Source: Arthrobacter sp. U41
GTDB taxonomy: Bacteria; Actinomycetota; Actinomycetes; Actinomycetales; Micrococcaceae
Reading direction: 5' to 3'
Length of the DNA: 64,000 nt
NCBI RefSeq assembly: GCF_007679325.1
Contig: NZ_VEGI01000001.1
Span: forward strand, 744,001-808,000
Part shown: positions 59,723 through 63,557 of the stretch, piece by piece
Layout: each line of letters opens with the position of its first letter
Position numbering within the stretch: the first letter of the stretch is position 1
Made by a program: the position numbers and the translations under genes
Notes under the pieces: generated by a model
What the model was told of the DNA's origin: nothing
Seen by the model: only the letters and a program-made list of their open reading frames with translations
Database searches by the model: none

Positions 59723-60796
59723 CTAGTCGCCGATGGCGTCGAGCCGGGCCTGTTCGTCCAACTCGATGGCCGACTGGATGACCGGCTCCAGGTCGCCGTT
59801 CATGACCTGGTCCAGGTTGTAGGCCTTGTAGCCGGTGCGGTGGTCCGCGATCCGGTTTTCCGGGTAGTTGTAGGTCCGGATGCGCTCCGAGCGGTCCATG
59901 GTGCGGATCTGCGACTTGCGCTGGGCCGAGTTCTCGGCGTCGATCTGTTCCTGCTGGTGTGCCAGGATGCGGGCGCGGAGGACGCGCATGCCGGCCTCGC
60001 GGTTCTGCAGCTGCGACTTCTCGTTCTGCATGGCGACCACGATGCCGGTGGGAAGGTGGGTGATCCGGACGGCGGAGTCGGTGGTGTTCACGGACTGGCC
60101 GCCGGGGCCGGAGGAACGGTACACGTCGATCTTCAGGTCGTTCTGGTTGATCTCGAGTTCTTCGGGCTCGTCCACTTCCGGGAGCACCAGCACGCCGGCG
60201 GCCGAGGTGTGGATACGGCCCTGGGATTCGGTCACGGGCACGCGCTGCACCCGGTGCACGCCGCCTTCGAACTTGAGCCGGGCGTAGACCCCCTCGGCAG
60301 GATCGTTCGAGGTGCCCTTGATGGCCACCTGGACATCCTTGTAACCGCCGAGGTCCGATTCGTTGGCTGAGATCATCTCGGTCTTCCAGCCGCGGGATTC
60401 CGCGTACCGGGTGTACATGCGCAGGAGGTCGGCCGCGAACAGGGCAGCCTCGTCGCCGCCTTCGCCGCCCTTGACTTCAAGGATCACGTTGCGGGCGTCG
60501 TCCGGGTCGCGCGGAATCAGGAGCCGGCGCAGCTTCGCCGCAGCAGTATCCAGCGCAGCCTCAAGCTCGGGCACCTCCGCAGCGAACTCAGGGTCCTCGG
60601 CCGCCATTTCCTTGGCAGCAGCCAGGTCATCCTGGAGCCCGTGCCAGGCATGGTAGGCCTCAACGATGCCATTAAGCTGAGCCGAGCGCCGCCCCAACTT
60701 CCGGGCAAGCTTCTGGTCAGCGTAGACAGCAGGATCCCCAAGCTGAGCCTGGATAGCATCATGCTCATCCAACAGGCCCTGTACGGACTCAAACAT
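59723..60796 (-). CDS. prfA: Peptide chain release factor 1
   Basis: 357 residues, normal for RF1. The peptidyl-transferase motif is [20 protein letters not shown], with Gln as the PrmC target, and [20 protein letters not shown] and [14 protein letters not shown] follow. It recognises UAA and UAG. An AAGG ribosome-binding site precedes ATG 60796; a TTG two codons upstream is unnecessary. The upstream gap to rho contains a large nested inverted repeat rather than rpmE. Confidence 0.96.
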
Positions 60797-60873
60797 TTTC
60801 AAAACCTTTCGTTCTGCACCCAGTTTAAATCAAGCGCAGGAATCGGCGCGCCGCGGTGGGCGAGCCCCGTAAC

Positions 60874-60989
60874 TGCCGCGCGGATGTTCCGCCCCGGGAG
60901 TGGCATGGGGCCTGTCGGAGCGTTGCTGCTGACGTACGCAGTACGTCAGCAGCAACGCGAAGGGGCGGGGGCGGAACATCCGCGCGGCA
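60874..60989. repeat. Nested perfect inverted repeat between rho and prfA
   Basis: The outer arms, 22 bases each, are identical inverted (60874-60895 beginning TGCCGCGCGGATG; 60968-60989). Inside, an 18-base perfect stem GCGTTGCTGCTGACGTAC pairs at 60920-60937/60941-60958 around GCA. A further GCGGTGG/CCACCGC pairs just outside. The element fills most of the 233-base gap between rho and prfA on the minus strand. Confidence 0.93.
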
Positions 60990-61029: not shown

Positions 61030-63228
<2,199 letters not shown>

Positions 63229-63557
63229 GAAGGATCCTTCCCCCTCGACGGCGTCCAGGCTAGGAGCTGGGCGCGATGATTTTGATCCGGGCTGCAGTTC
63301 AGATCTGCAGCCGCGATTTCGGCCTTGCCGGATGGATATTGGCCGACACGGCCGGATACTGCGTTCACCTGGCGCGTCCCGGAACAAAAGGAACGGCGGG
63401 CTGACGTATCAGGGGAGCAGAGATACTTTTCTGCGGATTCCTGCGTCAGACCAAAAGCAGGTGGCACCAGAAAATATTGCGCAGTGAAAGATGAGAGAGG
63501 CAACTAGGCCAACATCGCGGTCTTATGAACGGCATTTTACACATACCGCCTGCGTGA
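63229..63557 (-). promoter_or_regulatory. Upstream region and leader of rho
   Basis: 329 bases without a supported gene. On the minus strand, CTGACG and TATCTC with an 18-base spacer lie near 63455-63425 and could start a leader of about 190 bases. The leader is rich in pyrimidine stretches (CCCTGATACGTCAGCCCG, CCTTTTGTTCCGG), which would suit autoregulation by Rho, as is known for other bacteria. A 60-codon plus-strand frame here has no similarity and is not called. Confidence 0.45.

Follow-up and report, generated by a model that had tools for sequence, protein, structure and literature searches.

A nested palindrome downstream of rho in Arthrobacter sp. U41 belongs to a dispersed family of copies with a fixed core and covarying arms

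The window analyzed here, a 64,000-nt stretch of the Arthrobacter sp. U41 genome (contig NZ_VEGI01000001.1), contains rho and prfA on the minus strand, and the gap between them, 227 nt to the TTG start in the list of open reading frames and 233 nt to an internal ATG at 60796, lies where mycobacteria are said to carry rpmE, the gene for ribosomal protein L31. What occupies this gap, and did it displace rpmE? An earlier note had reported two nested perfect inverted repeats and no L31-like frame, and had proposed either a mobile palindromic element that replaced rpmE or a structure that protects the 3' end of the rho mRNA. We found the two nested inverted repeats at positions 60874-60989 as described, both perfect (22 bp outer and 18 bp inner), with a 3-nt loop between the inner arms (Table 1), and the gap held no L31-like frame. 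The nested repeat is stable far beyond shuffled sequences, with a folding energy of -93.3 kcal/mol (z -8.7) on the plus strand and -92.5 kcal/mol (z -11.6) on the minus strand, and 0 of 200 shuffles was as stable for either strand. A known Rfam RNA was ruled out as its identity since no match reached the gathering score; just four sub-threshold, chance-level miRNA matches were returned.

Table 1. Features of the post-rho locus, in window coordinates
Feature	Position	Strand	Remark
rho, upstream host gene	61030..63387	-	TIGR00767, 628 bits
prfA, gene downstream of rho	59723..60802	-	TIGR00019, 478 bits
Outer stem, left arm	60874..60895	+	sequence varies between copies and sites
Conserved strand A	60896..60919	+	GGGAGTGGCATGGGGCCTGTCGGA; family consensus GGGAGTGGCATCGGGCCTGYCGGA
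Inner stem, left arm	60920..60937	+	
Inner stem, right arm	60941..60958	+	
Conserved strand B	60959..60967	+	GAAGGGGCG
Outer stem, right arm	60968..60989	+	
Possible tail motif	60855..60867	-	CTCGCCCACC in rho sense, beyond the A-side arm

We analyzed 90 rho-prfA gaps from the same taxonomic family, 30 taken by score and 60 hand-picked to cover genera, drawn from the 197 genomes in which rho was matched. The gaps ranged from 27 to 283 nt. Compared to 10 L31 proteins of outgroups, none of the 90 gave a match, and L31 was present in all six rho-prfA gaps tested from order-level outgroups. The core of the palindrome (strands A and B with the inner hairpin between them) was carried by 11 of the 90 gaps; within the genus itself, 7 of the 12 genomes sampled had the core at the rho site and 5 did not. 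The L31 gene (PF01197) was single in all 25 genomes of the genus searched, U41 included; the U41 gene maps to 211160-211396 of the contig, beyond the limits of the window. Since L31 is gone from gaps with and without the core, its loss at this locus was independent of the palindrome and is most simply taken to be older. Replacement of rpmE by the palindrome was thus ruled out by the comparison of relatives that the earlier note had itself suggested: all 90 gaps lack L31, the 79 core-less ones among them, and the single L31 gene lies elsewhere.

The idea of a mobile palindromic element fared better. A BLAST search with the rho-prfA gap matched 35 of 59 genomes (U41 included), all within the genus, and hit nine places in U41. 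The conserved strand GGGAGTGGCATCGGGCCTGYCGGAGC occurred 7 times in U41 at up to 3 mismatches, as compared to 0 for its reversed control, and when shortened by 2 bases and searched at up to 2 mismatches it was found in 17 of 197 genomes of the taxonomic family, representing 6 of 32 genera. In a scan of named genomes, all 80 records among the matches listed (at least 117 stretches) belonged to Arthrobacter, Pseudarthrobacter or Paenarthrobacter. We aligned 57 of 58 copies in alignment A1, leaving out L004 for its non-matching arms, and 56 of 58 in alignment A2, without L004 and L058, from which the 116-nt covariance model R1 was built. The model was positive in 59 of 61 genomes of the genus at 1-8 copies per genome, and identified 7 copies of the ~116-nt element in U41: after rho, twice in the grpE-dnaJ gap, after infB, and in jetB, an E2 gene and cysD. 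The search for further copies proposed in the earlier note was therefore positive, and a single-copy reading was rejected: the inner palindrome by itself occurs once in U41, yet the element as a whole has seven copies. Another actinobacterial repeat, GGTTGAGCYTGTCGAAAC, gave one weak match in U41 with 2 mismatches, the same as its control, and was ruled out as a multi-copy repeat of this genome. Among the papers listed by searches of the open PMC literature none described the repeat family, and the core sequence strings matched none; Arthrobacter appears once in the portion of PMC12306157 consulted, in a table of REP counts.

All 56 aligned copies share the order outer stem, strand A, inner stem, strand B and outer stem, given here in the sense of the window plus strand (alignment A2 is of the opposite strand). 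Strands A and B were almost invariant and a 3-bp mini-hairpin within strand A was invariant in 56 of 56 copies, while both stems were variable yet complementary. Out of 1959 stem cells 90.3% were paired versus 63.3% in shuffles, two-sided changes numbered 508 versus 171, and the covariation score was 0.615 versus 0.136; pairing fell to 35-50% when the register was slid. Two further measures, the number of pairs with a two-sided change and the further pair types, were no higher than in shuffles. Two-sided changes affected 18 of the 22 outer pairs, and the outer arms differed by site. Only 20 of 1768 standard pairs were G-U (1.1%), and 191 cells were mismatched. When each copy was compared to its nearest one, we counted 73 two-sided changes, 14 one-sided changes to G-U and 49 changes involving a mismatch, with reciprocal pairs counted twice. 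The low G-U content and the predominance of two-sided changes between nearest copies favour copying of arms at the DNA level. Single-sided mismatches do exist among the copies, and at one position of the rho site intermediates were seen as a mismatch in L154 and a G-U pair in L165. L004 carries two non-matching arms, each of a different stem type, which points to recombination between copies. Beyond the element, the motif GTNNRSTCRCC, related to the tail motif of U41, lay near 64 of 163 A-side flanks versus 4.2% in mononucleotide shuffles; it occurred at 6 of 11 sites and was missing at the other 5. The tail may belong to the element, or it may mark preferred targets.

Both strands were recognised in 164 copies, which fell into 11 flank clusters, namely rho-prfA (48), grpE-dnaJ (33), infB (31) and eight coding clusters (52); six more copies, in which strand B was not recognised, were set aside. 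The number of sites is approximate, since some clusters represent other positions or orientations within one gene. Host genes were named from NCBIfam and PADLOC matches, except for the gene that we take to be infB from its C-terminal sequence. Recurrent coding sites, with the element in frame, were JetB, CysD, CysH, the E2 linker and an ABC permease. At the JetB C-terminus, sampled at 20 loci in three clusters (3 were not located and 1 had no core there), all 16 located ends were open and the copies read through; the core was oriented one way in 12 and the other way in 4, within the same GATGCCGCCC-type stem. CysD carried the element in 5 of 30 loci and E2 in 7 of 30, and every one was open (5 of 5 and 7 of 7). 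Among 30 infB loci 20 had the core and 5 lacked it altogether; 2 kept remnants, and in 3 a variant occurred in which strand A contains a second palindrome. Of the 42 distinct infB copies 35 were compared, the 7 with another or a second stem type being left out. That second palindrome, around CCCAATGCTCGCAAGCTCGCATCGGG, sits at the same point of strand A in L349, L352 and L359 (infB) and in L338 and L345 (E2), two unrelated sites, and it keeps the frame in E2.

Core-less relatives indicate how the nested structure may have arisen. In 76 of the 79 core-less family gaps a stem of 10 bp or more began within the first 60 nt after rho, as compared to 96 of 395 mononucleotide-shuffled sequences. In two genomes of the genus, L196 and L208, a plain hairpin CCGCTCAAAATATG...CATATTTTGAGCGG directly follows rho, and L206 and L207 have a near-identical CCGCTCAAAA-ATG stem with the core replacing the loop. 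The frequency of plain hairpins, together with the same outer stem occurring core-less in two genomes, argues that the core was probably inserted into the loop of an existing post-rho hairpin. For U41 the same entry is most likely, judging from these relatives, though its outer stem is unlike the commonest stem of core-less rho relatives. Nesting was also seen in L370 and L376, where a second stem and core lie within the infB outer stem. Two observations speak against entry into loops as a general rule. In L204 and L205 the element brought its own stem rather than entering a loop, because the right arm of the rho hairpin is left by itself downstream of it, and by eye no pre-existing hairpin was found at the CysD site in most core-less relatives. 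Rho gaps of four loci from other genera (L258, L285, L273 and L274) contain GCCCGAAGCCGCTCCC-like strands with a different inner hairpin inside a post-rho stem, which suggests that such variant cores are wider relatives of the element family. The rho gaps of L206, L010 and L011 also hold a different long palindrome, GCAACGCGGGGTCA...TGACCCCGCGTTGC, beside the element or replacing half of it.

We consider it likely that U41 carries here a copy of a non-autonomous palindromic element dispersed among Arthrobacter-type soil bacteria of the Micrococcaceae, one that nests in loops and whose arms are restored through template switching or through selection on pairing. The claim that the palindrome is mobile is supported by the 7 copies in U41, the 59 of 61 positive genomes, the ~11 sites, the nesting, and the presence or absence of the core at orthologous sites. 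Against this reading, no transposase or donor for the element was found, no target duplication was seen by eye, the plasmid and phage collections searched gave no match, and recent movement is limited, with the majority of copies located at a small number of inherited positions. The core, a variable inner hairpin between two fixed strands, most likely entered the loop of the family-wide post-rho hairpin at the rho site to give the nested double stem; copies have spread to the other sites, both between operon genes and in frame within proteins, where either orientation occurs. The arms change fast and still stay complementary, probably through template switching on DNA that recopies one arm from the other, and selection for pairing possibly helps to keep them so. 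The rho-prfA mRNA would carry a very stable structure just 3' of the rho stop codon, and the element is likely tolerated as the resident 3' hairpin of rho or in its stead. The second proposal of the earlier note, protection of the rho mRNA 3' end, would be plausible in view of the family-wide post-rho hairpin, but no classical U-tract terminator was found there. A bolder version is possible, and we offer it tentatively: the element would represent a new class of palindrome, entering hairpin loops including its own, in which template switching keeps the arms paired and sometimes flips the core without a transposase, and which is tolerated in proteins as a flexible Ala/Pro/Gly-rich linker readable both ways.

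The strong covariation and the invariant loop strands might also be expected of a functional structured RNA (a 3'-end protector, processing site or regulator) maintained at rho, infB and grpE-dnaJ through compensatory evolution, with the coding copies being secondary. Copies just after the rho and infB stop codons and in the grpE-dnaJ gap fit this explanation, as do the hairpins in 76 of 79 core-less gaps. We nevertheless regard it as unlikely, since the rho-site core is missing from 5 of 12 genomes of the genus and from most other genera sampled, G-U pairs are scarce, 52 of 164 copies, about one-third, belong to the coding clusters, where both orientations occur, and the structure has no Rfam family.

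Dispersed copies, inverted-repeat ends and nested insertions would also fit a classical MITE or REP whose terminal inverted repeats are the outer arms and which depends for its movement on a transposase, of the Y1/RAYT type or of another IS. This we find improbable. The outer arms are site-specific and are not common to different sites, no target duplication was seen by eye at core-bearing and core-less sites, and neither the plasmid nor the phage collections gave a match, which rules out a plasmid or phage origin within the collections searched. The Y1 transposase (PF01797) was present in 1 of 61 genomes of the genus and was absent from U41, ruling out Y1/RAYT mobilisation in the present-day genus. 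That the feature is simply the intrinsic terminator of rho, of unusual length by chance, is very improbable despite the hairpin that most relatives have at this place, since the feature is a multi-copy family with fixed core strands and copies elsewhere in the genome, and a consensus scan for a GC-rich hairpin with a U-tract found no terminator at the element.

Returning to the dispersed palindromic element, its closest likeness in mode, judged by description, would be to the palindromic elements (RPE) of Rickettsia, a member of another phylum. RPEs are described as short palindromic repeats of ~150 bp inserted in frame in unrelated protein genes (in the part of PMC10969869 consulted). The Arthrobacter element likewise falls in the range of ~100-150 bp, is palindromic and occurs in a number of unrelated genes, and its coding insertions are stop-free and in frame in JetB, CysD and E2. 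Unlike RPE, it has few copies per genome and nests in existing hairpins; its internal strands are fixed while its stems vary freely, and the core is found in both orientations at a single gene site. REP/BIME sequences of the GTAG and CGTC super-families are also palindromic and often lie close to the ends of genes or between the genes of operons, the CGTC type likewise lacking a dedicated transposase; they are 20-40 bp single hairpins with 5-13 bp stems, an unpaired GTAG/CGTC tag and many copies, unlike the longer element with its two nested long stems and few copies (sections of PMC3733652, whose main text, as far as consulted, does not mention Arthrobacter). MITEs such as ERIC, RUP and BOX are, in the same part of PMC10969869, small and non-autonomous with inverted repeats and some in-frame fusions; for the Arthrobacter element shared terminal repeats and a partner IS were not found, nor was a target duplication seen by eye. 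Template switching has been reported to make and repair stems by reverse-complement copying, which leads to two-sided base changes (in the part of PMC8794818 consulted), though that work concerns RNA genes and the Arthrobacter case is a dispersed repeat whose core is conserved. With this element Actinobacteria would join the small number of lineages whose genes carry in-frame palindromic inserts. Its many core-bearing and core-less sites and their dense sampling could tell stepwise compensation from whole-arm copying in hairpins, and since the sites adjoin core genes (rho, infB and the dnaJ operon), an effect on mRNA is directly testable.

The coding sites also hold other repeats. In L116 (JetB) the left arm and tail motif occur three times in tandem and in frame, the first two units being core-less. 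Another coding repeat, GGTGGTTGAGCCTGTCGAAACC (peptide VVEPVET), was seen in the same linkers of L323, L324 and L328-L330 (E2) and L135 (JetB); its likeness to the end of strand A may reflect a distant relationship. At the CysD N-terminus, L295 and L314 carry two more, unrelated palindromic inserts, in frame and at the same place.
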